From: Clostridiales bacterium | GTDB lineage: Bacteria > Bacillota > Clostridia > Lachnospirales > WQUN01 | Reading direction: 5' to 3' | NCBI GenBank assembly: GCA_031270945.1 | Contig: JAISWZ010000188.1 | Location: 1 to 64,000 of the forward strand | Length of the DNA stretch: 64,000 nucleotides | Shown here: positions 98 through 45,036 of the stretch, in pieces | How positions within the stretch are numbered: the first letter of the stretch is position 1 | Layout of the letters: the number at the start of each line of letters is the position of its first letter | Notes under the pieces: generated by a model | The model's input: the letters and a program-made list of their open reading frames with translations, nothing else | Databases searched by the model: none | Told to the model about the DNA's origin: nothing | Translations under genes and position numbers: made by a program

Positions 98-538
98 TTA
101 CGAGTTCCACTTCGTGATCGCATTGTCAATTTCCGCCAAGTCGCGGAGATTGACTTCTTCACTGGGGCTGGCGGGGAAAAAATCAGTGTCTAAATCCATA
201 TCCCAGCGCTCCAGGCGCTCAGTGTCCAGGTTTATAATGTACGAGTAAAGGTAATTCAAATCATCTTCGTAGTCATACGAATTCATGTACCATTCCTCGG
301 AGCGCTGGCTCATTGACACCAAATCCCAAGGCAAGTCCAGCAATTCCTTTCCGTCTATGGATTCTCCGAATGGAACCATTTCGATTTTGTCAAAGAGTCT
401 TCCAATCTCCTCCGGATTGCTATTCCTGCAAAAAGTCAGCATTTGCACACCTAGACTCCATGGGTAGCCGTCGGACTCGCATGAAGAGATTTTCTCTACG
501 CCGTTGCGTTTGAAACCGTACAAAGCTCTTGTGCTCAT
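98..538 (-). CDS. hypothetical protein, GTRALYGF/DGYP paralog 1
   Basis: Protein of 146 residues with no function I can assign. It opens with MSTRALYGF and has a DGYP motif near residue 23, followed by a conserved LTFCR-like segment, a central acidic part, and a C-terminal half with NLDTERLERW and a final NLRDLAEID stretch. The start is supported by GGGAGG about five bases upstream of the ATG. It is the most downstream of five same-strand paralogs in the first 3 kb. No membrane segment or signal peptide is visible, so it is probably cytosolic. The opening GTR plus DGYP pattern reminds me of bacterial and phage hypothetical proteins that begin MGTRSLT and contain a DGYP-like motif; that relationship is only a suspicion. 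Confidence 0.75.
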   Translation of the reverse strand: MSTRALYGFKRNGVEKISSCESDGYPWSLGVQMLTFCRNSNPEEIGRLFDKIEMVPFGESIDGKELLDLPWDLVSMSQRSEEWYMNSYDYEDDLNYLYSYIINLDTERLERWDMDLDTDFFPASPSEEVNLRDLAEIDNAITKWNS

Positions 539-638
539 TGCATCCTCCCATAATTGTAAAAATCAATATCAAATCTAATTCATTATACCACTTTATTAGA
601 CAAGATCAAACCAGTGCCGCCAATTGCGGGCATGCAAA

Positions 639-663
639 AAGACGGGCAGATTGCGCCCGTCTT
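639..663 (-). terminator. intrinsic terminator of paralog 2
   Basis: A 9-bp stem (AAGACGGGC at 639-647 paired with 655-663) with a 7-base loop. On the minus strand it is followed by a T tract (TTTTTGC). It lies downstream of the gene at 830-1261, read leftward. The rest of the 539-829 gap repeats sequence found just downstream of paralog 1, so the duplication unit included flanking DNA. Confidence 0.7.
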
Positions 664-829
664 CAAGATATCGAGTTTTAAGTTTTTAAGTCTCTAGATA
701 CGATAGCTAAGAAAATCGCCAATATCACAACAAATTTCCATCGACGCTTTGGGCTGGTCTTTTCCGGTCTTTTCCGATCATCATCCCAAAAAACCAATGG
801 CAAGCAGCCCCCAAGCGCCACCCCTCAGC

Positions 830-1261
830 TTACGAGTCCCACTTCGTGATCGCTTTGTCGATTTCCGCCAAGTCGCGGAGATTGACTTCGCTGACAAGGG
901 AACAGGTTGAGCCGAAATCCTTGCTATCCCAGCGCTCCAGGCAATCTGTGTCCAGATTTATAATATACTTGTACTGGTAGTCAGTGAAATCTGCCATGTC
1001 GTACATGTACCATTCCTCAGAGTGATCGCTGTTGGGCGTCAAGTACGACCAGGGCAAGTCTAACAGTTTCTTCCCTTTTACAGACTCCATTTCTTCCACC
1101 AACTCAATTCTGTCGAAAAGGCTATTCATCTCTCCCAAGTCGCTGTTCCTGCAAAAGTCCAGCATTGTAACACCCAGGCCGCTTGGGTAGCCGTCACAAT
1201 GGCAGTAAGAGATTTTCTGCTCGCCATTGCGTTTATAACCGTACAAAGCGCGTGTTCCCAT
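830..1261 (-). CDS. hypothetical protein, GTRALYGF/DGYP paralog 2
   Basis: Protein of 143 residues, the closest relative of paralog 1. They share TRALYGxKRNG near the N-terminus, the DGYP motif, an SEEWYM segment in the middle, and the VNLRDLAEIDxAITKW C-terminus. It begins MGTRALYGY and has AGGAGG six bases before the ATG. Noncoding sequence downstream of its stop is also similar to that of paralog 1, which points to recent tandem duplication. It has its own terminator at 639-663. Function unknown; no catalytic motif recognised. Confidence 0.75.
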   Translation of the reverse strand: MGTRALYGYKRNGEQKISYCHCDGYPSGLGVTMLDFCRNSDLGEMNSLFDRIELVEEMESVKGKKLLDLPWSYLTPNSDHSEEWYMYDMADFTDYQYKYIINLDTDCLERWDSKDFGSTCSLVSEVNLRDLAEIDKAITKWDS

Positions 1262-1303
1262 TGAATCCTCCTGTCAAGCGATTTTTTTCTGAAACATGGC
1301 TAT

Positions 1304-1420
1304 CTTAGTGCATGGCACCGAAAAAATCCTGGCGAATGCTTCTACTAGTTTGCTCGGGCTTTTGCGAGCAAACATCCGGATTTTTTCGGTGCTTCGGAAT
1401 TACTTTTGGGATGCACTAAG
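1304..1420. repeat. palindromic MITE-like element with 10-bp terminal repeats
   Basis: The ends are CTTAGTGCAT (1304-1313) and ATGCACTAAG (1411-1420). Inside is a perfect 15-bp inverted repeat, GCACCGAAAAAATCC (1315-1329) with its complement at 1378-1392, then a smaller inner hairpin around a GTTTGCTCG arm. It sits between paralogs 2 and 3. Related elements occur near 19.5 and 50.7 kb with the same GGCACCGG/AAAAATCC inner arms. It contains no ORF. Confidence 0.75.
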
Positions 1421-1907
1421 CGTATTCCCCGTTCTCCATTTCCGCAATCGCCTCTTTTATTGCAGACTGGTCGCAGAGATCAACTTCCTTGTTCAGCGTG
1501 AGCTCCTTGTGGTTTTCCCAAATCTCCAAACGCTCAGTGTCCAGGTTTATCACGTACTTGTATGAGAAGTGCAGGTGGGACATGTCTATCATGTACTTGC
1601 ACTTTCCCTCTCCAAAGTACGCGCCCAACTCGCCTTGGGTCTTCCTGAGAAGGCAGTACCAATCATCTGCCGTCTTGTTTGACACGTTCAGGTCCAGCCA
1701 AGCCATGCACGAGAGGATCTGCTCTGTCGTTGGATGAGAGTCTTGAGCTACCATCACTATCTCTTTGAAGCGCTTCTTCAGCTTCTTCAAGCTCTTTTTC
1801 TTGCAAAACGCCAAGATTTTTACGCCCAGCTCGCTTGGATAGCCATCGCAGTGGCAATAGTTGATCTTGTCCTCCCCCTTGTAGCGGAAGCCGTACAATG
1901 TGCTCAT
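1416..1907 (-). CDS. hypothetical protein, GTRALYGF/DGYP paralog 3
   Basis: Protein of 163 residues. It begins MSTLYGFRYKGEDKI and carries CHCDGYPSELG, so it clearly belongs to the same family. It is longer than paralogs 1 and 2 because of a middle insertion containing DDWYCLLRKTQGELGAYFG, which it shares with paralog 5. The C-terminal half has YVINLDTERLEIW and an acidic helix-like tail. A GGGGGA ribosome site precedes the ATG. The stop codon lies within the right end of the repeat element at 1304-1420, so the element abuts the gene end. Function unknown. Confidence 0.75.
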   Translation of the reverse strand: MSTLYGFRYKGEDKINYCHCDGYPSELGVKILAFCKKKSLKKLKKRFKEIVMVAQDSHPTTEQILSCMAWLDLNVSNKTADDWYCLLRKTQGELGAYFGEGKCKYMIDMSHLHFSYKYVINLDTERLEIWENHKELTLNKEVDLCDQSAIKEAIAEMENGEYA

Positions 1908-1919
1908 GGAATCCCCCTA

Positions 1920-2324
1920 TTAGGCATCCGCCGCCTTCATCGCCTCAACCGCTTCATCAACGCCAGGGAAATCGTTGAATTCCAGTTCCGCAGCCAGCTT
2001 CCATTGCCTATAGTTAAAGCGCCAGAACTCGATTTTCGCCTCGTTCAGGTTGATGACGTACTTGTACTTGAAGCTTTCTTTTTCGTACGGCACACCAGGG
2101 ACATAGCCCATCGTTTTATACATGTATTCCTCCAGGTCTTTTATCCCTGACTTGAACTCCATCAGCGCGACTTTCTCGAAACGCGCCCTCATTACGCGCA
2201 AGCTGTTGTTGACGCAGAATTGCGCCACTTCACGCCCTAGCGTGCCCGGATCGCCTTCCTCGTGGCATACAGCCAGTTTCTCGTCTTTTTTATAGCGAAA
2301 GCCAAACAGTGCTCCTTTGCTCAT
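1920..2324 (-). CDS. hypothetical protein, divergent DGYP-family paralog 4
   Basis: The ORF track extends to 2459, but I place the start at the internal ATG at 2324. It has GGGAGG six bases upstream and begins MSKGALFGFRYK, matching the family N-terminus. The resulting 134-residue protein is the most divergent member: DGYP is replaced by EGDPGTLG, and the central and C-terminal parts are shorter. It keeps KYKYVINLNEAKIEFW, equivalent to the NLDT..LE.W block of its neighbours. It lies 12 bases downstream of nothing else in its frame and 12 bases before paralog 3. Function unknown. Confidence 0.7.
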   Translation of the reverse strand: MSKGALFGFRYKKDEKLAVCHEEGDPGTLGREVAQFCVNNSLRVMRARFEKVALMEFKSGIKDLEEYMYKTMGYVPGVPYEKESFKYKYVINLNEAKIEFWRFNYRQWKLAAELEFNDFPGVDEAVEAMKAADA

Positions 2325-2465
2325 GAAGCGCCTCCCTAAAAATTTTATCGTTTTGAAAAAGCAAGCGCATAGGCTATAACGTCTCCGGTCCTCCCGCCCC
2401 GACCAATTCATTAATTCTGCACTGCACGCTTGCTTAGCAACGAGTTTCCCAACTAACAAATTTTA

Positions 2466-2960
2466 TCAGTATGCGCCCTCGTACCCGTCAATCGCCTCAT
2501 CAACCTCTGACTTGTCGCGCAAATCCACCTCGCTGTCCAATGTCAAGTCCTTGCCGTTGCTCCAAAACTCCAGCTTCCCTGTATCCAGGTTGATGATGTA
2601 CTTGTATTCGAAGTTCTCAATCTTTGAACTGTCCAACATGTACTCGCACTTTCCCTTACCGAAGTATGCGCTTATTTCTCCCTGCGTCTTCCGGAGAAGG
2701 CAGTACCAATCGTCAGCGCTTTTGTTCGACACGTTCAAATCCAGCCAAGGCATGCACATCAGGATCTGTGTTTGCGTAGGCCTTGAATCCAAGTCCACCA
2801 TAATGATTTTCTTGAAGCACTTGCGCATCTTTTTCAGGCTCTTTTTCCTGCAAAATATCAGCATTTTGCGCCCCAGGCAGTCAGGGTAGCCATCCATCTG
2901 GCAGTAGCCTATCTTTGATTCTCCCTTGTAGCTGAATCCGTATAACGCTCTTGTGCCCAT
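2466..2960 (-). CDS. hypothetical protein, GTRALYGF/DGYP paralog 5
   Basis: Protein of 164 residues and the first gene of the five-paralog run. It begins MGTRALYGFSYKGESKIGYC, has DGYPDCLG, and shares with paralog 3 the DDWYCLLRKTQGE insertion and the KYIINLDTGKLEFW block. GGGAGG lies seven bases before the ATG. Several Cys residues (CQMDGYP, FCRKK, WYCLL, KCEY) are shared with paralog 3, but I see no metal-binding spacing that I trust. Probably cytosolic. Function unknown. Confidence 0.75.
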   Translation of the reverse strand: MGTRALYGFSYKGESKIGYCQMDGYPDCLGRKMLIFCRKKSLKKMRKCFKKIIMVDLDSRPTQTQILMCMPWLDLNVSNKSADDWYCLLRKTQGEISAYFGKGKCEYMLDSSKIENFEYKYIINLDTGKLEFWSNGKDLTLDSEVDLRDKSEVDEAIDGYEGAY

Positions 2961-3283
2961 ATTATTCCTCCCTGATTATAAAATTCCCTGCACGCTTGCT
3001 TACGTGAGTCGAACCGCCAAATCCCAACGTTTCTCCTCATTGAAAAGTATTATAACATCAAGCGAAAAAACTGTCAATACTTTTATGCAACATTTTTGCC
3101 TCGTGATTGCTGGCTTGCCTTTTGCCAGAATGTTGGTATCAATGATTAAATTCCATGGTGGATTATGGTACGTAGCGCAACAGCGTGCCCAATCAATTCC
3201 TATCTTAACCCCTAGCCAATTAATCCCTATCCCGATCTTTCCTCCCACCCCCCTATTCACGCCTTCCTTCCCTCAGCATCCTA

Positions 3284-21730: not shown

Positions 21731-24049
21731 TTATTCACTCATGCGTAAAATAATATTGCTTTCCGCATCATCCAGAGCATCTTCAAGGCTCATTTTTTCA
21801 TCCAGAAAACTGATTAACGGATATGCGAGATCTTGCTTGTAGTAGCTCATGTCATACAAGTAGTCAACGCTGGATTGAATCAAGTCGAACTGCCTGTTTT
21901 CGAGTTGGTTAAAGGCTCTGTATCCGCTATTTCTCTTCATTTGCTCAGCCTTTTTGTTCAATGGCGATGATGATAAGGATCTTGGGGTTTGCGATTCCTC
22001 TCGTATGAGCCAGCTTAGAAACATCCAGGCTTCTTCCACTTTCTCCGACGAGTTTGATATGGAATACATCCGGTATGCGTAAGCTATGGAATTTCGGTCT
22101 TTTTCACCGCTGAAAGCGGGGATGTACATAACGCTCTGGGCTGACAGATCAAGCTTTGCAATCAGATCCCCATAGGATTCCGATAGGGAGAGCAAATCGG
22201 TAAGCAAGGCATCGTCTGTTCCTGTCAGATGCCTTTCATAGGGCACTTCCTTGTTCAAAACCCCTTTGTCCCTGGCGGATTTATAAGTTTCAACCAGCTC
22301 AGTGAACCAGTCTTGGCGCAAGTCAACAGTTTTTTCCTCCAGGTTAATAAGCGAGGGCATCTGGGCGATCAGCATCGGCACAAATATATTCGTGTCAGGA
22401 TTTGCGCCTTGCGAAGTTTTAAAAAGGCAAATATCCGGATACTTTTCGCTTATATCCAGCCACTTGTCCAGGACGCCTTTCCAGGTCATGTTATCGCTTA
22501 GCTCAAACCCTATCTTGTCGCCCAGCTCCTTGTTGTACATGTGCGCAGTGTAAATCGTTCCTACAGGCAAGCCTGTCACTTTCCCCTTCAGCGTTATGGC
22601 GTTGAGCACATTTTTGTTAAGGTCTTCATAAGACGGGTCTTCCTGCAGAAGCTTTGCTAGATCCACAAACGCGTCAGTCTGAAGGATGTCCAGGTACGGA
22701 AGACCCATGCCGCCTGTGGCAACTATGTCTCCTACGTCATTAGCCATGATCTTGGCGGCAAGTTTTTCTCCTGCAAGTTCAGTGGATTTCCTGAAATCCT
22801 CCTCGGAATGGGAAATGACATCCCATTCAACCAAGAAGTCATTGTTCTCCAGCTCAAATTTCCTAACGGACTCTTCCAGGAAGTCTTGCTTGTAAGCGGC
22901 TGTTATAGTAATCGAGCGGCTTTTTGGCGCCTCGGTTTTGGCGCCAGGAGCAAAGGCCATCCTGTACAAGCGGCTTGAACGGTTGGAGCGCTTAAGCGTT
23001 CCTACAAAAAAGTCATCGCCGCTTGACGCGAAGAAGTTCAGATTTTCCATGTAATCGTCGTTGTAATCCCCTAAGATGAACGGGGTGTCTGTACCGAACT
23101 CCAGAACCGTTTCCAGTGTTCTCCAATCTAGCTTGTAAATGGCGTCCTTATTGGCCAAATGCACTGTGCCGTCTGGGTTGGCGGAAACAAAATAGTCGCC
23201 GTTAACCTTAAATCGGTTAACTATCTCATAATCCCTGAAAATGTCGCACTTTAGAATTTCGTAAGTTCCTTTTCGCCCATTGGTTGAGACAGAAGCGTAC
23301 AAGTATCCATCGTCGTTTATGTCAATATGAGAAACCATGAACTGGCTAAGCACTCCGTCAAGCTTTTCCCCAGTATTTGCTGAATTTGCTGCAAGCATTC
23401 CGCCCTCTATAAAGTATGCGCCGCCGTCTGTGACTCTGAAATCATCAACAAACATCGAAAGCACTGTCTCAAACTTTGCGGATTCTTTAAGCGCTTCAAG
23501 CGAACCTTGCGTACTATTAACTTTATTGTTATTTTCGTCATACGCTTCCAGCACAAACTCCGATATCTGATCTTGGACGAATTTGTGATAAACCAGATAA
23601 ACATATCCATTCTCGTCAACGTCCCAGTTCACCAACCAATACGAGTCGTCATGATTTTCAAAAGGCTTGGTTATTTTATTCATGTCAGGATAAAGCCCTT
23701 GATGTATTGTCCCGCCGTTTTCTAGAGAAAAATATAAAACCCGCCCCAATAAGTCTGTTTTCAAGGCGTAGGGCGCTTCGTATTCATCGGATCTAATGAT
23801 CTCTGTTTCGTAATGATAGTCTTTAACAAACACCTGCGGCTCAACAAGCTCAGTGACGGCGGGCGTTTGCTCCTGCGGTTTGGCGTCAGTGAAATTTGGC
23901 GCAGGCTCTCTTGTGGCAGGGGTCTGTGACGCTTGAACCAGATAATCCGATTCAATTTTAGGCTTAGTTAATGATCTTAAGCTGTAAACAATAAACCCTA
24001 TAAGCATAACACCTATACAAATTAAAGCGTATAATTTATTTTTTTTCAT
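21731..24049 (-). CDS. membrane-anchored extracellular solute-binding protein with propeller-like N-terminal part
   Basis: Protein of 772 residues. A single hydrophobic segment (about 7-24) without a convincing lipobox suggests an uncleaved anchor, followed by a Pro/Thr-rich linker. Residues about 75-365 contain repeated D-x-x-G-x-x-Y blocks (VDENGYVYLVYH, INDDGYLYASVS, NPDGTVHLA) that look like propeller blades. From about 375 (SITITAAYKQDFLEESVRKFE) to the end it matches type-1 sugar/oligopeptide solute-binding proteins (VATGGMGLPYLD, VTGLPVGTIYTAHMYNKEL). It lies between the precursor gene and the maturation genes; the likely permeases are at 30.9-32.6 kb. Role in sensing, immunity or uptake of the peptide is inference. 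Confidence 0.8.
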   Translation of the reverse strand: MKKNKLYALICIGVMLIGFIVYSLRSLTKPKIESDYLVQASQTPATREPAPNFTDAKPQEQTPAVTELVEPQVFVKDYHYETEIIRSDEYEAPYALKTDLLGRVLYFSLENGGTIHQGLYPDMNKITKPFENHDDSYWLVNWDVDENGYVYLVYHKFVQDQISEFVLEAYDENNNKVNSTQGSLEALKESAKFETVLSMFVDDFRVTDGGAYFIEGGMLAANSANTGEKLDGVLSQFMVSHIDINDDGYLYASVSTNGRKGTYEILKCDIFRDYEIVNRFKVNGDYFVSANPDGTVHLANKDAIYKLDWRTLETVLEFGTDTPFILGDYNDDYMENLNFFASSGDDFFVGTLKRSNRSSRLYRMAFAPGAKTEAPKSRSITITAAYKQDFLEESVRKFELENNDFLVEWDVISHSEEDFRKSTELAGEKLAAKIMANDVGDIVATGGMGLPYLDILQTDAFVDLAKLLQEDPSYEDLNKNVLNAITLKGKVTGLPVGTIYTAHMYNKELGDKIGFELSDNMTWKGVLDKWLDISEKYPDICLFKTSQGANPDTNIFVPMLIAQMPSLINLEEKTVDLRQDWFTELVETYKSARDKGVLNKEVPYERHLTGTDDALLTDLLSLSESYGDLIAKLDLSAQSVMYIPAFSGEKDRNSIAYAYRMYSISNSSEKVEEAWMFLSWLIREESQTPRSLSSSPLNKKAEQMKRNSGYRAFNQLENRQFDLIQSSVDYLYDMSYYKQDLAYPLISFLDEKMSLEDALDDAESNIILRMSE

Positions 24050-24211
24050 TTCAACCTCAATAATCTTGAATTCACGTCTTCCTTTATGCGTTCACATGCG
24101 CACCTTGCGAACGTTATATCACCGAACAACACAGACTGCTAACACGAAGTACTTCTTACTTCCATAGCTATAAATACAAAATAAATATTAGGTAAGGGGA
24201 CAGTTCAACTG

Positions 24212-24472
24212 CTATTCTTCAATCATAATTTTCGAGCCCTCAAAATCTACATAACATCTTAAGTTTTTCAGTTCGTACTTTTCATTGATATCATCCCACC
24301 ATTTTTGAAACAAGCGCGTTGTTTTCCCATAATCTGCAACAAACTTCTCGTAAAGTGAGGAATTTAAAACGTCAGGCAATTTGGCCAGATTTTCAAGAGC
24401 AATCTTCCTTTCAAAAAGTTCCTGTATGTACTTTAACTCTTCATTTGTTAAATCACAAGCAACTCTATTCAT
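24212..24472 (-). CDS. small CXXX-system accessory protein (predicted)
   Basis: Protein of 86 residues, probably cytosolic and helical: MNRVACDLTNEELKYIQELF, then a Leu-rich segment, a KWWDDINEKYELK segment, and a C-terminal RCYVDFEGSKIMIEE. AGGAG lies ten bases before the ATG, and the gene starts 13 bases after the radical SAM gene ends, so the pair is cotranscribed. NCBIfam contains a small family called CXXX repeat peptide modification system protein; size and position fit, but I cannot confirm homology without a profile search. A peptide-binding role similar to RiPP recognition elements is one possibility. Confidence 0.6.
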   Translation of the reverse strand: MNRVACDLTNEELKYIQELFERKIALENLAKLPDVLNSSLYEKFVADYGKTTRLFQKWWDDINEKYELKNLRCYVDFEGSKIMIEE

Positions 24473-24485
24473 CGCATATCATCTC

Positions 24486-26609
24486 CTAGACAGTGTAATA
24501 TCCAATTTTTACATTTTCAAGTATTTTCACTATAGGATCGTCATAACCTATCTCCGTCAATCCCTCTTTTTCAATTTTTAACCTGTACAAATTAGAAATT
24601 TCTCTTTCAATATGGCTCTTTTTACATTGGAACGAAGGTGGAACATTAATTTCACGTGTAGTCTTTACGTTGATGTATATGCAGCCTAAGCATTGATAAG
24701 AATCACAATTAGAGCAAATAGGTCGTCTAGAGTTTTTGTACATTTCCTTGTTAAATGTCCCTTTTATGCCTATGTAAGCGTCGCCCACACTGTCTATCTT
24801 ATCCTTTCCATAAAAAGCAGAGCATACATATATCTTCGAGTCCGGTGCATAAACGAAGGAGCGATTTCCAGCTTTACAGTTATCAAAATCATCGATATAG
24901 CACAGATCTGTTATAAGATTTACTTCCTTACTTATACCTGCTTCATGATATTTTACAAGGTTTAGCATTATTTTCTCTAGTTGAGATTTGTATACGGCAT
25001 TATTAAAAGTACGTTCTACATCCAATATATTTAAGTTGATACGACTTGACTTTTCCAACAGAACAGAAACAAGTTCATTTAACAAACATATGTCATTCGA
25101 ATTCACATTCAACATGCAACTAATTAGTCCATATATAGGTAAATATACGCTTTGTTTATCAAAAATCAACATGCACTCTTTTAACGTTTTGGATTCTTCA
25201 TAGAACTTCGCCGGAACCATATGAAAAATTGTATAGTCATTGTATGCGTCATCGTGACTATAAGTAAATTTCTTCGATGAATGCACGAATATCGGCCTAA
25301 AGAAATCCTTTCTACAGAATTTCAACCCTTGCAAAATATCATTACTACTCATCAACGTTTCGGAATTCGAAGAATTACTAACAGAACAATAATCCACATG
25401 ATCATCAGAAAGAAGAAAATAAAGCCTTTGCGTGTCTCGACCATTAAAATCTTTTTTAATTCCGTAAATATTCAGCAGTTTTGAAAAATAATAATCGTTT
25501 GCGCGAACACGCGCTTTATGCATTTTGCATATGTACTTCGCACGATAGAAATTGGTTGAATCTGGTGACTCATCATAACAGAAGCCTTGACAGAAGCTAC
25601 ATCCCCATGCTACAGGACACTCTAAGCATTCAGAATCACTTTGAAGCGCATATGTGGCTGTCATAAAAGGTCGTACTTTTTCCATGTCAATGCCACTATT
25701 AACATCTCCAATGCACCACTCATCTTTATTATTCAGGGAATATGATCGAAATCTTATACAAGGATATATTTTTCCGTCATTGCCAACCGCTATCATTTTT
25801 CCAGCGCCGCAACTCGTAGATGTCAAATCATTTAGGCCATAGAACCCTCCTATATTGTCATCAAAAAGCGAACATCTGTACTGGTTATGCAAATTATTCT
25901 CGATAATATAATCTGCTAATAATATCATCTGTTTTTCAAATACTAAATCATCGTCGTACTCCCAAACATTTTCAAATACAACATTGGCAGAAATGTCATG
26001 TATCCCCATTTCCCAAAGAGATATGATACTTTCTTGTAAATAGCATAAATCAGCATGTGCAAATGTGACTTTTGTGTTCGCCCTGAACTGCGATTTCCAT
26101 ATTTCTATATTTCCAGAAATTTGGTCATAAGAACCACTACCGTCAGGAAATACTCGTTGTAAATCGTGTTTAGTTTTAGTGCCATCTATAGTGATACTCA
26201 ATGACAATTTATCTTTATTCTTAGCAATATATTCTTGAACCTTTGAATTTGAATAGTTGACTCCGTTCGTGCATATATTAAAACGATAGTTCCAGTACCA
26301 TGGATGATCAATCTCAAATGCTCTTATCTTAAAATAATCGCTTAGTCGATCTATAAGGTCAATTTCTAGAAGCGGTTCCCCTCCGATAAATTCCAAGACA
26401 ACCGAATTTGGAAAATTTATGTCAGCCGAAAGAATGTAATCTATGAATTTTTTGCCCGTTTCATAATCCATCTTTTTTTCAGACGATTTATGCGTAATAT
26501 AGCAATACTTGCATCGAAGATTGCATGCATCTGTCACGACAAATGTAATAGTTTGACTGTTTCCCTCATTCCATATTTCTACATTCTTTCCTACCATATA
26601 TTCACTCAT
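24486..26609 (-). CDS. radical SAM/SPASM peptide maturase fused to a second SPASM-containing maturase
   Basis: Protein of 707 residues, starting at ATG 26609 (GAGGAA upstream; the track uses a GTG three codons earlier). The first half is a radical SAM enzyme: CNLRCKYCY binds the catalytic 4Fe-4S cluster near residues 29-36, with FIGGEPLLEIDLI following. Near 260-375 comes a SPASM domain with CGAGKMIAVGNDGKIYPC and CLECPVAWGCSFCQGFC. The second half (about 390-707) lacks CxxxCxxC but ends in another SPASM-like set: NCKAGNRSFVYAPDSKIYVC, then CSNCDSYQCLGCIY and a final Cys. It looks like a fusion of the CXXX-repeat radical SAM maturase and the separate CXXX repeat peptide maturase families. Likely reaction: thioether formation on the 16-Cys peptide. 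Confidence 0.85.
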   Translation of the reverse strand: MSEYMVGKNVEIWNEGNSQTITFVVTDACNLRCKYCYITHKSSEKKMDYETGKKFIDYILSADINFPNSVVLEFIGGEPLLEIDLIDRLSDYFKIRAFEIDHPWYWNYRFNICTNGVNYSNSKVQEYIAKNKDKLSLSITIDGTKTKHDLQRVFPDGSGSYDQISGNIEIWKSQFRANTKVTFAHADLCYLQESIISLWEMGIHDISANVVFENVWEYDDDLVFEKQMILLADYIIENNLHNQYRCSLFDDNIGGFYGLNDLTSTSCGAGKMIAVGNDGKIYPCIRFRSYSLNNKDEWCIGDVNSGIDMEKVRPFMTATYALQSDSECLECPVAWGCSFCQGFCYDESPDSTNFYRAKYICKMHKARVRANDYYFSKLLNIYGIKKDFNGRDTQRLYFLLSDDHVDYCSVSNSSNSETLMSSNDILQGLKFCRKDFFRPIFVHSSKKFTYSHDDAYNDYTIFHMVPAKFYEESKTLKECMLIFDKQSVYLPIYGLISCMLNVNSNDICLLNELVSVLLEKSSRINLNILDVERTFNNAVYKSQLEKIMLNLVKYHEAGISKEVNLITDLCYIDDFDNCKAGNRSFVYAPDSKIYVCSAFYGKDKIDSVGDAYIGIKGTFNKEMYKNSRRPICSNCDSYQCLGCIYINVKTTREINVPPSFQCKKSHIEREISNLYRLKIEKEGLTEIGYDDPIVKILENVKIGYYTV

Positions 26610-26689
26610 TGCATCCACTTCCTCAATCGCTAATTGCGCAGAAAATAGCTTTTTTTCTTTTCCTTAATCAATCAACTTCATATTAGACG

Positions 26690-26707
26690 TGTTCATTTAA
26701 ATGAACA
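26690..26707 (-). promoter_or_regulatory. 18-bp perfect palindrome upstream of the maturase gene
   Basis: TGTTCATTTAAATGAACA is a perfect palindrome 80 bases upstream of the radical SAM start codon, in the gap between exporter and maturase. It is a plausible repressor or activator site; no regulator gene is present nearby. Confidence 0.45.
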
Positions 26708-26777
26708 GATTCCTACGTACACGGATTACCATTATGCGATAAACTTACAGCACCTAATTAAATCCATTATTGATAAT

Positions 26778-28496
26778 TTACATTTTTTCTATTGCTTCTT
26801 TTTCAAACAGCTCCTTATAAAGAACATTTCTAGATAAAAGTTCTAGATGCTTCCCAAAATCCTGTATTTCACCATTATCTATTAAAAAAATGCAGTCGCT
26901 TTTTTCTACAGAAGATAACTTGTGACTTATAAAAATAACAATTGAGTTCTTAGCCACTTCAGATAAAAGATCCATTACTTTTTTCTCGAATTTACCATCA
27001 AGATCAGATGTTATTTCATCTAATAGCAAAACAGAAGAGTGTTTCAGGAGCGCTCTCGCAATATTTATTTTTTGTTTTTGACCACTTGAAAGCAAATTTC
27101 CATCTTCTCCTAGTTTTGTCTTTAAACCATTTATAAGCATTTTCTCCAACTCATTAATTTCTGCCTTTCTGCAGACGTCTGCAACTTCAGTTTCATCCGC
27201 CTTCGGATTAGCTAGTTTAACATTCTCAATTAATGAGTCATTAATTATAAACACTTCTTTTTGTGCATATGTAATGTTATCTCTTAAACTCAATAACTTT
27301 ATCTCACATATATCTTTATCATTTAGATAAACAACTCCACTTTGTATTTCATAAAACCCCATCAATATTTTAGCCAGCGTACTCTTCCCACAGCCATTTC
27401 TTCCTACAATGCTATATAAGCCCGGCTTATCAATATCAATCGAAATCCCCTTAAAAATTTCCACTCCGTCAAAATAACTAAATTTTAAGTTTTTAATTTT
27501 AATTTTCCTTATGTCTCCTAAATCCAATCCTGCATTCAATACTTCAGAATCATCATCTAACATTCCGAATATTCTATCAGCACTTACTGATACTGTCTGA
27601 GCTTGTATGTTAAAAGCTAAAATTCTCGAAACAGAATCGAACAATTTTCCAACGTACGTGTTAAATGCAACCATGTTTCCTATTGTCAATTTTCCCTCAA
27701 TTATGAACCTTGCCGATGTGTATATTGTAAAAAGAGTAAACACAAGCAGAATTGCTTGGCTCCCAATATTCATGAAGTTGCTCAAAAAAAATGTTCTTTT
27801 AAGTATTGACAGCTTTTTATCAGTGAATTTTAAAAAATCAATACGTGATGCACCTTCGGACATAAAAGAGCGAATACCTTTAATGTTCGCAAATGTAGAA
27901 TCGACAAAGCTATAATATTTGTCATGCAACTCTTTTTCTTGCTTTGATAAAACTTTAAACTTACTTCGAAAAACTATATTGTTCAAAGCAGTCAATGGTA
28001 TAAATAAAATAGCAATTATAGACAATCCCGCAGATATTGAAAAAACAAAGTAAAGAGAAACAATTAAATTAAAACTTATTAAAGCGATGCTTGTTACTAA
28101 ATTTAAGCAAAAATCAACAATTGCATTGGTATCAAATTCAAGTCTAGATATCAGCTCTCCTGTTGTTAAAGCGTCTAGCTTTTTAAACCTAAGACGCAAT
28201 ATTTTTTCAAATATGGCCAATTTCACTTCATTGTTCACTTTAAATGCAAACATTTCCCCTATGTAACTTTCGTACATCCCTAAAGCCATTGAAACTATCG
28301 TAATTGCAAAATAAGCAGCAATGCATATTGGCAAATCGGATACAGAGCCGATTGTAACAACATCAATCATTTTTCCATAGATATATGGACTGATGTTTGC
28401 CGTAATAACTCCAAATACTATGAGAATTATCAAAAAAGAAATAAACACTCTGTGCTTTTTAAAAAACAAAATATAAAACCGATTAAACGTTCCCAC
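26778..28496 (-). CDS. ABC exporter (fused membrane and ATPase domains)
   Basis: Half-transporter of 572 residues working as a dimer. It has six membrane helices in residues 1-300 and an ATPase domain with Walker A VGRNGCGKST, Q-loop YAQKEVF, signature LSSGQKQ, Walker B SVLLLDE and switch His in FISHKLSS. There is no N-terminal C39 peptidase domain, so leader removal, if any, must come from elsewhere. GTG start with AAGGAG six bases upstream. The gene shares the strong AT bias of the maturase gene downstream, supporting joint acquisition. It is the obvious candidate for exporting the modified peptide. Confidence 0.88.
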   Translation of the reverse strand: MGTFNRFYILFFKKHRVFISFLIILIVFGVITANISPYIYGKMIDVVTIGSVSDLPICIAAYFAITIVSMALGMYESYIGEMFAFKVNNEVKLAIFEKILRLRFKKLDALTTGELISRLEFDTNAIVDFCLNLVTSIALISFNLIVSLYFVFSISAGLSIIAILFIPLTALNNIVFRSKFKVLSKQEKELHDKYYSFVDSTFANIKGIRSFMSEGASRIDFLKFTDKKLSILKRTFFLSNFMNIGSQAILLVFTLFTIYTSARFIIEGKLTIGNMVAFNTYVGKLFDSVSRILAFNIQAQTVSVSADRIFGMLDDDSEVLNAGLDLGDIRKIKIKNLKFSYFDGVEIFKGISIDIDKPGLYSIVGRNGCGKSTLAKILMGFYEIQSGVVYLNDKDICEIKLLSLRDNITYAQKEVFIINDSLIENVKLANPKADETEVADVCRKAEINELEKMLINGLKTKLGEDGNLLSSGQKQKINIARALLKHSSVLLLDEITSDLDGKFEKKVMDLLSEVAKNSIVIFISHKLSSVEKSDCIFLIDNGEIQDFGKHLELLSRNVLYKELFEKEAIEKM

Positions 28497-29022
28497 TCAA
28501 TTCTCCTTGCTAAATATTTTCGCTTATTCAGCGGGTGTAATTCCATGCCTCACATACAAGTTTTATTGTGACGCCTATTAAGACTAAATCGCTTTCGTTT
28601 GAAGAATGGAAAACACACAAGATTCAATGATTGGCAAATAATACTACCTTTGCTTATATTAGTTAAGCTGGCTAAAATATTTTGTGCAAACTGGCTCACC
28701 AACAGTTGCGATTGAATGTTAACAAACTCGTGTATGATAACCTTAGGATATTCGCACTTTACTTAGAGCTATCATTAATTCCGAACCCCTCGACATTCTC
28801 CAAGCTATATTATTCTTGTTTTGCGCTACAGATCCTGTTAACTAACCTGTAGCGCCATCTACACACTTTAACAAATTCATCATCTGTGCTTTCATATGCG
28901 AGATAACCCTTGACAGTTCTATTATACGTCATTACAAGGATATGCGCAAGTGGTTTTTAAAAAAATTTTTATGTCGCGCTTTAGCTTGAAGGAGCAACGT
29001 AGCTTCAATTCTTTACTGCTGT
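28497..29022. other. AT-rich intergenic region, no gene seen
   Basis: About 525 bases between the exporter and the MacB-like gene. No ORF with a ribosome site. Base composition changes here from the AT-rich exporter side to the more GC-rich permease operon side. Confidence 0.6.
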
Positions 29023-30174
29023 TTAACCTTGGGCATTATTAATCAAATAAGAGTCTAGCCCTTTCATTCCCATCTTCAAAATCCTTGCAATCTCAAAGAT
29101 CCCAAAAGCCGTTAAAGCCATCCTAGCCCAGAACATAACAGGATATGCCATTTCATAGGCAGACCTTTTATGCGCGTAAAGAAGGTTGCCCTCCCTAATC
29201 TTCTCGCGGACAATGCCCCGGTAGAACGAGAAGTCAAAGAAGCTCTGATCCGGCGCATACTTGCTTGGAATAAAAAGCTCAAACCTGACCTTTCCGTAAA
29301 AAACAAGAATCAAGGCTATCGTTGCAGCAATGGCGATAAAAGCCTCTGCCAACTTGGTTGCGTTGGATTCGCTAGACAAGCTTTCTGTTTTCAAAGAGGC
29401 CGCAACCGTCTTGAACTGGCCAGCGCAAAAAAGCCAGCAAGCCTTCGCCATTAGCAGAGACAAGGCCAAAAACCCTGAAAATTTCACAAAAAGCCAGAAC
29501 TGGTCAAGAATGTATTGGGATCTGCTAAAATCCCTGGCAACATAATTTTTGCCGCTTGCGCCTAATGCGCCAAGGGCGTCCGAAGCCGCGAAAGGGCCAG
29601 ATGTTGAAACCCACACGCTTGAAACCGCAGCCGCCTGAGCATATGCCTTGTCAAACCCGCTATTTGCCGGCAGGTAAACATCTCTTATCCCGTCGTCCGA
29701 GACAGCCGCAAGAAGCCAGTTTTCTCTGTAGACGCCGCATACCTGGTAGCGGATCCCGTTCAGCTTGAATTCTTGCCCCACCGAGTCAGCGACCCGGAAA
29801 ATTTCAAAAGACAAGTCTTCGCTTATCAGAGCGCTGTTTATCCCGTATATGACAGCTCCATCAGAAAAGGTTGAGCCGCTTGAAAAGTGAAAATCCTTGA
29901 ATTCATCCAGCTCCGAGGTTGTCACAAAAACATTGACAGAAATGGATGGTTCGCTAATGCCCCCCACGACCCCGCCAACTTCTTTGAAGCAAGCAGCGTT
30001 GCTTCCGAAGGCTTCTCCCGCTTTTTCAAAGGTTGTCCCGAAGCTGGCGTTCATCCCGTAATTCCTTGCGTGAAGCTCAACCCGGCTCATCAATCGCGGA
30101 AAAGCAAAGTCAAGCGCAAAGCCGCAGATCACAGACAAAACCAGTCCCAAAGCCGCGCAAGCCATCTTTCTCAT
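29023..30174 (-). CDS. MacB/FtsX-like membrane protein
   Basis: Protein of 383 residues with the topology of MacB-type permeases without their ATPase: one N-terminal helix (about 6-25), a large extracytoplasmic region (about 30-225) with the ISEDLSFEIF and VCGVYRENW elements typical of the MacB periplasmic core, and three C-terminal helices (about 232-253, 280-300, 345-365). Its ATG overlaps the stop of the upstream adaptor gene by four bases (ATGA), so the two are translationally coupled. MacA-MacB pairs act on peptides or lipids at the cell surface. No matching ATP-binding protein is in the window. Confidence 0.7.
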   Translation of the reverse strand: MRKMACAALGLVLSVICGFALDFAFPRLMSRVELHARNYGMNASFGTTFEKAGEAFGSNAACFKEVGGVVGGISEPSISVNVFVTTSELDEFKDFHFSSGSTFSDGAVIYGINSALISEDLSFEIFRVADSVGQEFKLNGIRYQVCGVYRENWLLAAVSDDGIRDVYLPANSGFDKAYAQAAAVSSVWVSTSGPFAASDALGALGASGKNYVARDFSRSQYILDQFWLFVKFSGFLALSLLMAKACWLFCAGQFKTVAASLKTESLSSESNATKLAEAFIAIAATIALILVFYGKVRFELFIPSKYAPDQSFFDFSFYRGIVREKIREGNLLYAHKRSAYEMAYPVMFWARMALTAFGIFEIARILKMGMKGLDSYLINNAQG

Positions 30175-30812
30175 TGCGCGATCCTCACTTTCATCCCGTT
30201 CTTGACAGCCTTGGTTGTGCCTGAAATGAAGAGATCCCTCTCTGAAAGCGACTGCGAGACAGCTGCATTGAAGTCATCTTCGGCTTCAACATCCACTTCT
30301 TGCCTCCTTGCGACATAAGACTCTCCAAGCGCTCCGCTCTCGGTCTCCACGCGGTAAACGTACGTCCCGCCTCCCTCCCGGAAAACGCAGCCTTTTGGCA
30401 GGACGTTTGGGTATGTTCCGATTGAGTGCCTGAAGCTGACATCGCATTCCTGCCCGTCATAAGCGCCCTCAGCGCCAGATGCCTTGCACTTGGCAACGAC
30501 TGACTGGCTATTCTCGTCAAATGACTTCTCCGCAACTATGCAATCAACCCGTCCTGCCAGGTTTGAAAATGAAGCGTAGACCCTCCCGCCTTCCTTGAGA
30601 ATGCTGTCCTGCTCCAGCCCTATGGAGAAATAGACAAATGAGTCCCTGTAAACCCCGCGCGATCTCGCGTCGTATCCCAAGCTCTGGGACATCCGTCCAG
30701 CGACTCGCACCTCTGGCGTCATCCAGTAGTCGATCTTCGAGCTAGCCAGCGTAAACGCAAGCATCACAGCGAGAAATGCCGCTGCGGCCTTCACAATTCT
30801 CTTGCTCGGCAT
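30171..30812 (-). CDS. MacA/HlyD-like adaptor protein
   Basis: Protein of 213 residues; start at ATG 30812 with AAAGGTG upstream (the track begins at an earlier GTG). An N-terminal hydrophobic segment (VKAAAAFLAVMLAFTLA) anchors or exports it. The C-terminal half has the barrel pattern of membrane fusion proteins: GGTYVYRVE, then VARRQEVDVE, then the closing GTTKAVKNGMKVRIAQ, comparable to the LKDGxxVR ending of RND/MacA adaptors. The long coiled hairpin of full MacA seems absent, as in many Gram-positive homologs. Coupled to the MacB-like gene by ATGA overlap. Confidence 0.72.
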   Translation of the reverse strand: MPSKRIVKAAAAFLAVMLAFTLASSKIDYWMTPEVRVAGRMSQSLGYDARSRGVYRDSFVYFSIGLEQDSILKEGGRVYASFSNLAGRVDCIVAEKSFDENSQSVVAKCKASGAEGAYDGQECDVSFRHSIGTYPNVLPKGCVFREGGGTYVYRVETESGALGESYVARRQEVDVEAEDDFNAAVSQSLSERDLFISGTTKAVKNGMKVRIAQ

Positions 30813-30832
30813 AAAATTCACCTTTTTTTATA

Positions 30833-40524: not shown

Positions 40525-43500
40525 CTACGACTTTATGAACCTCAGCAGCAATGCCGCCAAGAGCAAGTCTTTGGACGAAAGGGTGTTAAGCTTTGGAAGG
40601 CAGTTCAGGCTTCCGGTCTGGAGCCCGACTAGGAGGTCTGTTGCGGTCAAGCCGTCTCCAAGCCCTATCAGAGAAAGCAAGTCGCTTGTTGACAAGCCCT
40701 TCCCGGACTGGATAGCGGCAATGACATCGCTGCCTGACAGCCCGTTTCCGAGCTTCAGCCCTGCTACAAGATCTGCCACCAGATCGTTTACGCACTGGCT
40801 AGTTATGGCCTGGCTTGTTGCGGGCTGGCTTGTTGCGGTTTGCGCCGCTGCCGGCTGGCTTGGCGCTGGCTGGATTGTTGCGGTCTGGGCTGTTACGACT
40901 TGGCTTGCCGGGATCTGCCCTGTGATCTGGCTTCTTCCGCCACACCCGCATCCGGCTCTGCCGGTCTGGGTTGTTGCGGTCTGGCTTGTTGCGGTCTGTC
41001 CTGAAACGCTGCTTGTTCCGGTCAATCCTGAGATCTGGCTTCTTCCGCCGCACCCGCATCCGGCTCTGCCCGTCTGGGTTCCGACAGAGGGAGTCACGGC
41101 CCTTGTTCCTGACTGGGAGATGGCGTTGCTCAGGGAAACGAGCTTATTCCAGGTATCCCTGCCTACAATCCCGTCTGCGGTAAGGCCGAAGAGCCTCTGG
41201 AATATGGCTACGGCGTTCTGGGTGCCCGTGCCGAACACTCCGTCAGCAGTAAGCTTGGGGATAGACGGGTATCTGATTGAGGCGGCATTTAGCCAGGACT
41301 GGATAAGGGCCACATCCTCGCCGCTTGAGCCCACTTTGTAGGAGTAGCCGGCGTATTCAGGGGCGTAGCCTGACGGAAGGGTAAGGACGGCTGACATGAT
41401 TTTGTCCCATGTAGCCTGGCCTACGACGCCGTCATCCTTTAGGTTGAAAAGGCTTTGGAACTCTTTGACGGCCGCGGCCGTCCCGGCGCCGAAAACTCCG
41501 TCGGCGCAGATGGCAGTGATAGACGGGAATATCTGGGACAGGGCGTTTAGGCTTTGCTGGATCAGCTTCACGTCGTTGCCTGAGGATCCCAAGGTCAAGT
41601 AGTAGCCGGGGTACTGGGGAACGGTAATTGTCGGCGCCTTCTCGGATTCGGTGACGAGCTTGTTCCAGGTCTGCTCACCTACAACACCGTCTGCCGAAAG
41701 CCCGAAGAGCTTTTGGAATGCCATGACCGCTTGCTGGGTGCCTGGCCCGAAGTTGCCGTCAGCCGTGACAGCGGGGATGGACGAGTTAAGAAGAGCGACC
41801 TTGTTGATCAGTTCCTGCAAAAGCCTTACATTGTCGCCGCTTTGCCCTACCTTCAGGAGGTATCCAGGGTAAGACGGAGATGATGTCACGGGCTTTTTCT
41901 GGGACTCAGCCACGATCTTATCCCAGGTCTGCTGGCCTACGATCCCGTCAGCGGAGAGCCCGAAGAGTTTCTGGAAGGCGATGACCGCTTGCTCTGTGCC
42001 TGATCCGAAGTCGCCGTCGGCTGTCACTTTTGGGATGGAGGGATTGTAGTCTGCCACCTTGTTCAGGTATTCCTGCAAGACCCTGACGTTTTCTCCGCTT
42101 TGCCCTACCCTAAGGAGATATCCCGGGTACTTGGAGGAATCGGTTGGGGTCTTCTGGGACTCAAGGACTATCCTGTCCCAGGTCTGCTGGCCTACGACGC
42201 CATCAGCATCAAGCCCGAACAGGTTCTGGAAAGCCAAGACCGCTTGCTCTGTCGCTGGCCCGAAGTTGCCGTCAGCGGTAACAGAAGGGATGGAAGAGTT
42301 AAGCTGGGCCACTTTGTTCAGCAGTTCCTGCATGGCTTTGACGCTTTCGCTGGTCTGCCCTATCCTGAGCGCGTAGCCCGGGTACTGGGATGAAGATGAA
42401 GGGGTTTTCTGGGACTCTGCAACTATCCTGTCCCAGGTTGCCTGCCCTACGACGCCATCAGCGTCCAGTCCAAAGTACTTCTGGAAGGCTATGACCGCCT
42501 GCTGGGTACCTGAGCCGAAGTTGCCGTCAGCAGTAATAGAGGGGAGTGAGGGATTAAGCCTTGCCACAATGTTCAGCAGCTCCTGCATGGACTGGACGCT
42601 GTCGCTGGTCTGTCCGATCCTTAGCGCATAGCCTGGGTAAACGGGAGATCCGAATACCGCTCTGGTCTTGTAGGCTTCCGCCACAATCTTATCCCAAGTG
42701 GCCTGCCCTACTACGCCGTCAGCCGAAAGGCCGTAGTAATCCTGGAACGCAATGATCGCCTGCTGGGTGCCGTAGCCGAAGTATCCGTCCGCTACAAGCG
42801 TGGGGATTGACCAGTTCCAAGTGGCGATCCTGTTCAAAAGTTCCTGCATGACCCTGATGTTCTCGCCATTCTGGCCGAGCTTTATCAGGTATCCCGGGTA
42901 TGGGAGCGATGGTGTTGGCTCTGGCGTTGGGGTTGTTGACGTCTTCTGGGACTCAAGGACTAGCCTATCCCAGGTGGACTGCCCTACTATCCCGTCAGCC
43001 GAGAGGCCAAAGAGGGACTGAAAAGCCTTGACAGCGTTAAAGGTGCCGGGCCCGAAATCTCCGTCCGCTGTCACCTTCGAGAGCGATGGGTTAAGATTCG
43101 CGACCAGGTTCAAGAGCTCCTGCAGCGTCTTCACATTGTCGCCTTTTTGCCCTTGCTTTATGAGGTATCCCGGGTACGGAACCGAGGGCTTTTTCTGGGA
43201 TTCCAAAACAAGCCTATCCCAGGTGGACTGCCCTACTATCCCGTCAGCCGTGAGGCCAAAGAGGGACTGAAAAGCTTTGACAGCGTTAAAAGTGCCAGGG
43301 CCGAAGTCCCCGTCCGCTGTCACTTTGGAAAGCGATGGGTTGAGATCCGCGACCAGGTTCAAGAGTTCCTGCAGCTTCTTTACGTTGTCGCCTGTTTGCC
43401 CCTGCTTGATCAGGTATCCTGGGTAAGCTGGGCTAGTTCCTGGGGTGCTGGGAGTCTCAGGAGTGCTGGGAGTCTCGGGAGTGCTGGGGTTATCCGGAAT

Positions 43501-45036
43501 AACCGGGTTTCCTGGCACTGGCGCTTGGTCTTTGATGGACCAATAGACTTCGTACAGCTTCTTCCAAGTGTCAACGCTCACAGCGCCGGTCTGGGGAAGC
43601 CCGAACGTCTTCTGGAACGCCGTGACAGCTGTCTTGACATCGGCGGTGAATGCGCCGTCTTCTATCACTTCTGGCACTGTGTCATAGAACTGGGCGATAT
43701 ACGTGAGAAGGAACTGAAGCTCAACTATCTCAGCCCGCTTGGACTGGGTTTCCTCCAGGCTCATCCCGTACTGAAGCCAGGTCTGAGGAGGCGTTCTTCC
43801 TACGCCTATCCTCTCGCCTTCGCTGTCAAGCTCGGCAAGCCTCTTTACCGCCACATACTTCCTGGATATCTCGTACCAGGTGCTCTTTCCTATGATCCCG
43901 TCCGCCGGAAGGTTGAATATCTCCTGAAACTTCTTTACCGCAGCCTTCGTGTCAGCGCCAAAGACCCCGTTGGGGTTGGTTATGGCAGGTATCGCCGGGT
44001 AGTTCGTCCTGATCCTGTTCAGGTAGTCCTGCATGACCTGGACGTTGATGTCATCATATCCCTCCATCAAGGCGTAACCCGGATAGGTCTCGTTGCTGTA
44101 GGAGATCTCGTCTGCCCAAGCCAGCTCCATGTCTTCGGGATAGAAGTACCGGATGATCTCCATCGCAGTGTATCCCTGCAACGCCAGGTACTGGCTTCCC
44201 CACTGGGTGAGCCCGTCGCAGGTAGCGTTCCTGCCGTCGCAGTAGATTGTGAAGTAAGGCTCGTTCCTGCCCAGCCTCTTCAGGTAGGTTCCAAACACCT
44301 CATCCACTATGGCCGCGACGTTCGAGAATATCTCTCTTCCCGGCACATAGTACTGGTCTGTCCTGGTGTTGTTCGTGATGTCAAAGCTGTACCCCTGGCT
44401 TGGGTACCAGGCGGTGTAGATCCTGTTCATGGCGAAGGTGATCTGGCACCACACGTTCGCCTTTATCGCCTCATACTCCCAGTCGGCGCAGATCTCGCTG
44501 CAGGCCACGTTCTTGATGTAGTCTTTGAACGGCACAGTCACGTCCACCCCTGGGTCTTTGTAGTACGCAAGGTGCACCCGGATATACGCCGGAAGCTTCA
44601 CCGTGTTTGTGCTTGCCCTGGCTCTCCTGTAATCCGCCTCTTGCGGGTACGATCCAGGCTCTGGCGCGGATCTGAAGTCAATGCCGTGCTCAGCCGGAAT
44701 GTTTATCTCCCTGGCCAAGCCATCCCTTGTCTGGGGATGCATCTGCACAGTCAGCTCGGAGTCGATCCCCCCGAAAATCTGGACACCGTGCGCTATGACG
44801 CCCTGGCTTCGGCTTGTCGACAGAACCTCGACATCGTAAGACTGGTAGCTGGTGCATGAGCCAACCAAAGCTTTAGTGTCTATGACTGGCAACGGAATCC
44901 TCTCAACCTTGCCGTCGCTGTCGACAGTCAGGGTATATATCGTTGTTCCGCCGCTTTTGACAAGAACCTTGGTTCCTTGGGCAGGCATGACGCCTTCTCC
45001 CCAATCCAAGGCTATTGTCAAATATCCTTCAGCCAT
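40525..45036 (-). CDS. SpoIID-like protein with 11 peptidoglycan-binding repeats
   Basis: Giant protein of 1503 residues; start ATG 45036 with GGAGGTGG upstream (the track begins 16 codons earlier). Residues about 1-110 form a beta-rich domain, then a SpoIID/LytB-like domain: VACSEICADWEYEAIKANVW through YSFDITNNTRTDQYYVPGR. After about residue 330 come eleven PG_binding_1 repeats of about 70-90 residues, each with YPGY, a QELLN helix, TADGxFGxGT and ADGxVGQxTWD; two early ones are divergent and the rest are very similar. The tail is a Ser-Gln-Thr-Ala repeat containing GRAGCGCGGRSQI twice, then a hydrophobic helix-rich end. No signal peptide, as expected of a mother-cell or spore-layer protein. 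Probable role: binding cortex or spore peptidoglycan. Confidence 0.85.
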   Translation of the reverse strand: MAEGYLTIALDWGEGVMPAQGTKVLVKSGGTTIYTLTVDSDGKVERIPLPVIDTKALVGSCTSYQSYDVEVLSTSRSQGVIAHGVQIFGGIDSELTVQMHPQTRDGLAREINIPAEHGIDFRSAPEPGSYPQEADYRRARASTNTVKLPAYIRVHLAYYKDPGVDVTVPFKDYIKNVACSEICADWEYEAIKANVWCQITFAMNRIYTAWYPSQGYSFDITNNTRTDQYYVPGREIFSNVAAIVDEVFGTYLKRLGRNEPYFTIYCDGRNATCDGLTQWGSQYLALQGYTAMEIIRYFYPEDMELAWADEISYSNETYPGYALMEGYDDINVQVMQDYLNRIRTNYPAIPAITNPNGVFGADTKAAVKKFQEIFNLPADGIIGKSTWYEISRKYVAVKRLAELDSEGERIGVGRTPPQTWLQYGMSLEETQSKRAEIVELQFLLTYIAQFYDTVPEVIEDGAFTADVKTAVTAFQKTFGLPQTGAVSVDTWKKLYEVYWSIKDQAPVPGNPVIPDNPSTPETPSTPETPSTPGTSPAYPGYLIKQGQTGDNVKKLQELLNLVADLNPSLSKVTADGDFGPGTFNAVKAFQSLFGLTADGIVGQSTWDRLVLESQKKPSVPYPGYLIKQGQKGDNVKTLQELLNLVANLNPSLSKVTADGDFGPGTFNAVKAFQSLFGLSADGIVGQSTWDRLVLESQKTSTTPTPEPTPSLPYPGYLIKLGQNGENIRVMQELLNRIATWNWSIPTLVADGYFGYGTQQAIIAFQDYYGLSADGVVGQATWDKIVAEAYKTRAVFGSPVYPGYALRIGQTSDSVQSMQELLNIVARLNPSLPSITADGNFGSGTQQAVIAFQKYFGLDADGVVGQATWDRIVAESQKTPSSSSQYPGYALRIGQTSESVKAMQELLNKVAQLNSSIPSVTADGNFGPATEQAVLAFQNLFGLDADGVVGQQTWDRIVLESQKTPTDSSKYPGYLLRVGQSGENVRVLQEYLNKVADYNPSIPKVTADGDFGSGTEQAVIAFQKLFGLSADGIVGQQTWDKIVAESQKKPVTSSPSYPGYLLKVGQSGDNVRLLQELINKVALLNSSIPAVTADGNFGPGTQQAVMAFQKLFGLSADGVVGEQTWNKLVTESEKAPTITVPQYPGYYLTLGSSGNDVKLIQQSLNALSQIFPSITAICADGVFGAGTAAAVKEFQSLFNLKDDGVVGQATWDKIMSAVLTLPSGYAPEYAGYSYKVGSSGEDVALIQSWLNAASIRYPSIPKLTADGVFGTGTQNAVAIFQRLFGLTADGIVGRDTWNKLVSLSNAISQSGTRAVTPSVGTQTGRAGCGCGGRSQISGLTGTSSVSGQTATSQTATTQTGRAGCGCGGRSQITGQIPASQVVTAQTATIQPAPSQPAAAQTATSQPATSQAITSQCVNDLVADLVAGLKLGNGLSGSDVIAAIQSGKGLSTSDLLSLIGLGDGLTATDLLVGLQTGSLNCLPKLNTLSSKDLLLAALLLRFIKS

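Follow-up and report, generated by a model that had tools for sequence, protein, structure and literature searches.

What function is served by five small paralogous genes that stand in tandem at the edge of a bacterial contig and resemble no described protein domain? The question is raised by positions 98–2960 of a 64,000-nucleotide stretch of DNA from a Clostridiales bacterium (assembly GCA_031270945.1, contig JAISWZ010000188.1, positions 1 to 64,000), here referred to as the window. A preliminary description of the window, made from the letters of the sequence, regarded such an array as typical of immunity, antitoxin or receptor-like families under diversifying selection. We find instead that the five genes belong to PHROG_30528, a widespread family of small proteins with a single domain that is carried mainly by phages, that they arose by tandem expansion of a single ancestral gene, and that their products have lost, to graded extents, polar residues that hardly vary among the phage proteins.

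The array and its family

The five genes, numbered g1–g5 by rising window coordinate, are all encoded on the minus strand as intact open reading frames (ORFs) of 134–164 amino acids. The short-form paralogs g1 (98–538, 146 aa) and g2 (830–1261, 143 aa) are sisters with 65% identity, g3 (1416–1907, 163 aa) and g5 (2466–2960, 164 aa) are long-form paralogs, and g4 (1920–2324, 134 aa), the most divergent, lies 12 bp upstream of g3. We placed the start of g4 at the ATG at 2324, which is preceded by GGGAGG and coincides in the alignment with the start of the family proteins, where the ORF list gives a TTG at 2459. A Shine–Dalgarno-like AGGAGG, GGGAGG or GGGGG precedes the ATG of each of the five genes. 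Pairwise identity over aligned codons ranges from 27 to 67%, and the kinship is not due to chance, since even the weakest pair tested by BLASTP (g4 and g5, 134 and 164 aa) yields E = 4e-22; g1 and g5 (146 and 164 aa) yield E = 1e-27. The tandem same-strand arrangement and the expansion with divergence that had been described beforehand are thus confirmed. The shared blocks (M-x-T-R-ALYGF, DGYPxxLG and YKYIINLDTxxLExW) also align across the array as had been claimed, although not without exceptions, as g3 begins with MSTLYGF and lacks the TRA, and g4 has EGDP instead of DGYP and NLNE instead of NLDT.

Scans of the array proteins against Pfam, NCBIfam and PADLOC returned nothing significant, and the profile scans gave no match to a housekeeping domain; a confident match of that kind is what the preliminary description had named as speaking against it. 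The profile of the phage family PHROG_30528 (183 positions), which matches 58 of 60 aligned members, directly matches g3 (E = 1.8e-11), g5 (1.8e-10) and g2 (2.3e-7). With g1 it reaches only E = 0.12, and g4 does not reach the profile; these two are tied to the family through g5 by the BLASTP values given above. Two further copies in the same genome, on contigs C68 and C69, match the profile as well. The family consensus reads MGTRGxxGF...YNHxDSYPxxLG...DWYxLLRxxQG...EWAYIINLD...LExYxGF. Since almost all members have this motif from the initiator codon onwards, the N-terminus itself seems to matter. The varying middle segments noted in the preliminary description are real but are a trait of the family as a whole, as several viral members (for example, L048, L088, L106 and L111) also lack the middle block.

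Matches by tblastn were found in Arthrobacter, Myxococcus, Microbacterium, Rhizobium and Bacillus G phages and in two plasmids; gp81 of Arthrobacter phage Rizwana is an example of a canonical phage member. The YNHxDSYPxxLG codon pattern occurs in 98 IMG/VR stretches. By the profile, the majority of the 80 numbered loci code for family proteins. A scan of prokaryotic genomes gave 45 loci, several of them in surroundings that appear phage-like by eye (small ORFs in series, genes for exonucleases or recombination); they include archaeal-labelled bins of metagenome-assembled genomes (MAGs), but a bin may also contain contigs from phages that infect other hosts. When only the five window proteins served as queries, scans of viral and genome contigs found no relative, the array copies being too derived, whereas scans with the canonical phage motifs succeeded. 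Phage members carry the canonical YNHxDSYP and EWAY residues and are mostly single-copy, with two copies on some viral contigs, whereas the array copies are chromosomal, tandem and depleted of many of these residues. An apparent set of four copies in phage Pumpernickel was rejected, as its six matches reduce to two distinct genes doubled by terminal repeats. Full-text searches with motif strings and the PHROG name yielded, in the library searched, no paper on the family and none naming phage G gp614. Similar MGTRG...DSYP-like proteins may also occur in fungi.

Two further groups border on the family. The MGTRHLxxVV...AQYGQWDGYPSGQG branch (Chryseobacterium, Acinetobacter and Clostridia MAGs; L148–L166) matches the same profile with E between 1e-25 and 1e-38 and keeps T3-R4, Y19, D23, P26 and G30, but it forms a separate long-branch clade (support 100) with YGQWDG in place of YNHxDS. 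PHROG_1987 and PHROG_23089 have only the N-terminal GTRG...DSYPxxLG part in common with some family members; their C-terminal halves differ, and the proteins are shorter or longer.

Structures were predicted with AlphaFold (AF2) for g5 and for L052, a canonical family member whose residue numbering is used throughout. Both models have high predicted local distance difference test (pLDDT) and template modelling (pTM) scores (g5, pLDDT 95.5 and pTM 0.89 with 60 aligned sequences; L052, 97.2 and 0.92) and share the same fold, with the elements in the same order: a strand hairpin, two helices, a long and mostly irregular centre, three strands and a C-terminal helix. Foldseek found no PDB fold match to either model at E < 0.2, and no PDB entry matched the family in sequence. 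The structure prediction proposed in the preliminary description thus provided a confident fold (pLDDT 95–97) but no PDB counterpart, and the predicted fold may be new, as judged against the PDB search only. Among the viral models of BFVD, g5 matches Orpheovirus IHUMI-LCC2 A0A2I2L3W6 (E = 3.5e-13, TM 0.77/0.82, 33% identity) and proteins of Edafosvirus, Tupanvirus, phage G (gp614) and a medusavirus. The giant-virus proteins in this list, from viruses of eukaryotes (amoebae), have the same predicted fold and are uncharacterised.

Loss of conserved residues and selection

The extent to which the array copies depart from the family can be measured over 36 alignment columns, each conserved in ≥80% of 67 relatives. 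The relatives retain on average 33 of the 36 residues, compared with 22 in g3 and g5, 16 in g2, 13 in g1 and 11 in g4, a loss of 14–25 in the array; the copy on C68 (C68a) retains 23 and that on C69 retains 15. All five array copies keep P26, G30, the family tyrosine (Y123) and the glutamate of LExY (E133), and four keep D23, which is Glu in g4. The YNHxDS motif is altered in all five, with N20 and S24 gone throughout and the P..LG frame retained. R4 is lost in g3 and g4, so that the T-R pair is kept only in g1, g2 and g5. The EWAYIINLD...LExY block is present in all five in the modified form YKYIINLDxxxLExW, and among the array copies the EWAY glutamate is found only in g5. The DWYxLLRxxQG block occurs in g3 (as WYxLLRKTQG) and g5, is missing from g1 and g2, and has no conserved residue left in g4; g1 and g2 have no R90/Q93 element, and g4 does not conserve it. 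In g1, for example, T3, R4, D23, P26 and G30 persist, while Y19, N20, H21 and the WYxLLRxxQG element have been lost.

Pairwise ratios of nonsynonymous to synonymous substitution rates (dN/dS) among the paralogs range from 0.15 to 0.48 and show that the paralogs are under purifying selection overall. Synonymous sites are near saturation for most pairs, with dS of 0.91 substitutions per site between g1 and g2. In this last pair the middle segment is the most diverged at both kinds of sites (dN 0.41, dS 1.93), and the 3' end of g1 with its downstream flank (1–157) is repeated behind g2 (732–889) with 82–95% identity, more alike than most of the coding region. The repeat is evidence of a duplication with homogenised ends, and the pattern in g1 and g2 resembles what a recent duplication or the homogenisation of ends would leave, and not what selection for novelty would. 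The diversifying selection proposed in the preliminary description is therefore unsupported.

The array copies have probably lost parts of the family's functional site. Because genes that are intact and under purifying selection have lost residues of this likely functional site, the comparison suggests that their role has changed.

Origin and genomic context

In a tree of 77 rows with supports from the Shimodaira–Hasegawa-like approximate likelihood ratio test (SH-aLRT), the seven copies in the genome form one clade (support 96) inside a mostly viral clade of 38 rows (98), with the five array copies (96) and the C68/C69 pair (95) as subclades. The array is an in-place tandem expansion of one ancestral gene, and the second pair descends from the same ancestor. 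In two samples of relatives, 1 of 146 and 1 of 41 genomes were positive, both being this genome itself, and the family is absent from the sister species (91% complete). Since the relatives lack the gene and the genome copies form one clade, a single acquisition followed by duplication is most likely. The phylum sample contained one other positive genome, where the locus includes a PD-(D/E)XK-like exonuclease ORF (domain assigned by eye). A separate lineage-specific expansion is found in Zixiibacteriota, with five matches in one genome that form one clade. In that phylum, family copies adjoin an N6/N4 DNA methyltransferase gene (L129, 2303–3718, with PF01555; L131, 7001–8416).

The source genome comprises 8.8 Mb in 725 contigs. 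The window begins at the first base of contig C494, and its first 119 bases are identical to the last 119 of contig C273, an assembly-graph overlap. On C273, the next contig past the window start, this side of the array carries a gene for an 858-aa protein kinase with leucine-rich repeats (L204, 76–2652, plus strand) and no further copy of the family. The possibility that the array extends past the contig edge was thus rejected, and the array consists of exactly five genes. The other flank holds a MatE transporter, a protein without a Pfam match, DUF6062 and an 8-oxoguanine glycosylase (OGG). Neither flank contains phage-like genes, and no toxin, secretion or effector gene is among the flank genes. 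An empty site for the array was not located in the sister species, where the best match to the MatE neighbour has 29% identity and no close orthologue was found. MatE-like matches number 18 in this genome and 8 in the sister species, and genomes of this genus are 7.7–8.8 Mb in size compared with 1.9–3.7 Mb in the sampled other genera of the same family, an apparent growth of the genome in this genus.

The second tandem pair consists of C68a (C68:6199–6789) and the C69 gene (C69:24–602), which are neighbours because their contigs are joined by a 119-bp exact overlap. The same overlap accounts for an apparent eighth copy at the C68 end, which is the C69 gene. Directly upstream of this pair, and away from the array itself, lies a Shango-like defence operon (L009, G000:C68, 1–5861; domains TerB-C, BrxC/D and helicase), in which PADLOC recognizes SngA (E = 2e-26), SngB (8e-174) and SngC (2e-208). 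The family is not among the three parts of Shango (SngA, SngB and SngC). The sister species, of the same genus, has a Shango-like operon (C186; SngC and SngB with 54–59% identity) with different downstream genes and no family member at the locus. The adjacency is therefore not a conserved partnership, and we rejected the family as a component or partner of Shango.

Apart from metallophosphoesterases (6 loci) and some accessory genes of phages, none of them a partner, no recurrent neighbour was found in 77 viral loci, and no toxin or secretion gene stands beside the members in ten bacterial loci read by eye. The search for toxin or secretion genes next to homologs, suggested in the preliminary description, was thus negative at the array flanks and in the viral and bacterial loci alike, and the supposed likeness to immunity, antitoxin or receptor-like families found no partner to support it.

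A pattern scan that found 8 promoter-like sites compared with a mean of 4.0 expected placed a candidate array promoter at 3049–3077 on the minus strand, ending 89 bp upstream of g5, with a consensus sigma-70-type sequence (TTGACA-17-TATAAT, 12/12 with an extended −10). A second promoter-like site (TTGATC-16-TATAAT, extended −10) lies at 582–609 on the minus strand, upstream of g1. The region between g3 and g2 contains an inverted repeat at 1315–1392 (26-nt arms, 81% complementary), possibly a structured RNA or an attenuator. Elsewhere in the window, a 1519-aa ORF at 40525–45084 (minus strand) has 11 PG_binding_1 (peptidoglycan-binding) stretches, and a low-GC stretch at 21731–30821 (minus strand; GC down to 0.33 near 24–28 kb) encodes radical SAM, ABC transporter, MacB-like and solute-binding proteins, perhaps an acquired cluster for the modification and export of peptides.

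Possible roles of the array

The reading that we consider best, and in which we have about even confidence as a whole, is that a virus-borne accessory gene was captured once and amplified, and that its copies have since drifted towards a different role, probably not a catalytic one. The phage protein would be an accessory factor, enzyme-like or ligand-binding, that works alone; that it is enzyme-like we regard as fairly probable from the pattern of its conserved residues. Its pocket would comprise T3-R4 at the extreme N-terminus, Y19-N20-H21-x-D23-S24-Y25-P, R90, Q93, E120, D128 and E133, and its target would be so general that the protein is of use both to phages and to amoebal viruses. More tentatively, the bacterium would have captured one copy and then amplified it, and the copies would have been retained for binding or regulation and not for the original catalysis, for example, to compete with incoming viral versions or serve as decoys for them, or to modulate the same target. 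A changed role of the array copies is, in our estimate, slightly short of an even chance, and their use in defence or as decoys is rather improbable.

Several points weigh against this reading. The putative pocket is deduced from conservation only, and capture from a phage is suggested by the nesting in the tree, with no prophage genes flanking the array. Values of dN/dS between saturated paralogs are approximate and averaged over sites. Neither biochemistry nor fold offered a clue to the activity, as there was no PDB match at E < 0.2, no PDB sequence match and no paper in the library searched.

The alternative that survives best, although we consider it unlikely, is that the array copies keep the ancestral enzymatic activity and that the array raises dosage or broadens the range of substrates. 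Purifying selection, P26, G30, Y123 and E133 in all five copies, D23 in four (E in g4) and the YxLLRKTQG element in g3 and g5 would all be expected of active proteins, but N20 and S24 are lost from every copy, R4 from g3 and g4, the EWAY glutamate from all except g5, and the R90/Q93 element from g1 and g2, with no conservation in g4. A bolder interpretation, which we regard as improbable, is that the family represents a new fold, which phages and giant viruses use for an undescribed activity on a substrate that bacterial and amoebal hosts have in common. The arrays here and in Zixiibacteriota would then be host-captured, partly inactive decoys or inhibitors of incoming viral versions, and a viral effector would have been domesticated repeatedly for defence.

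It is quite improbable that the array is a decaying prophage remnant whose copies are non-functional leftovers of phage genes. Although the family is phage-borne, many conserved residues have been lost and the genes lie at a contig end, all five ORFs are intact and have ribosome-binding sites, a promoter-like site with the full consensus is present, dN/dS is well below 1, no phage genes are nearby, and the copies arose by duplication inside the genome and not by repeated insertion. Immunity or antitoxin genes diversified against variable toxins are very unlikely: the MatE, DUF6062, OGG and kinase genes of the flanks include no toxin, secretion or effector gene, dN/dS is below 0.5, the phage homologs are single genes with no recurrent neighbour, and the sister species has Shango without the family, which leaves the small, soluble, tandem and divergent character of the paralogs and the position of the second pair downstream of a Shango-like operon as the points in favour of such a role. 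A remote relationship to Ntn-hydrolases or class II amidotransferases, suggested by the conservation that begins exactly at residues 1–5 and by one Streptosporangium plasmid member reading MCGFFGF, is extremely unlikely and largely refuted by the fold searches, as none is among the best 50 Foldseek matches to the PDB for the g5 or L052 model, and residue 2 is Gly in most members and Ser, Ala or Val in some, usually followed by T-R-G, and not a nucleophilic Cys. The start of that plasmid member (L022, 4989–5555) reads VSMCGFFGF, with MCGFFGF as a possible N-terminus.

The family is found in phages from several bacterial phyla as well as on plasmids and chromosomes of bacteria, and giant viruses encode structural relatives of it. 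The family is dense in invariant polar residues and yet has no Pfam or NCBIfam entry and no solved relative. With about 190 amino acids in a single domain it is a tractable orphan that could perform a function shared among viruses, and its lineage-specific bacterial expansions constitute a natural series of residue losses that could separate binding from catalysis.

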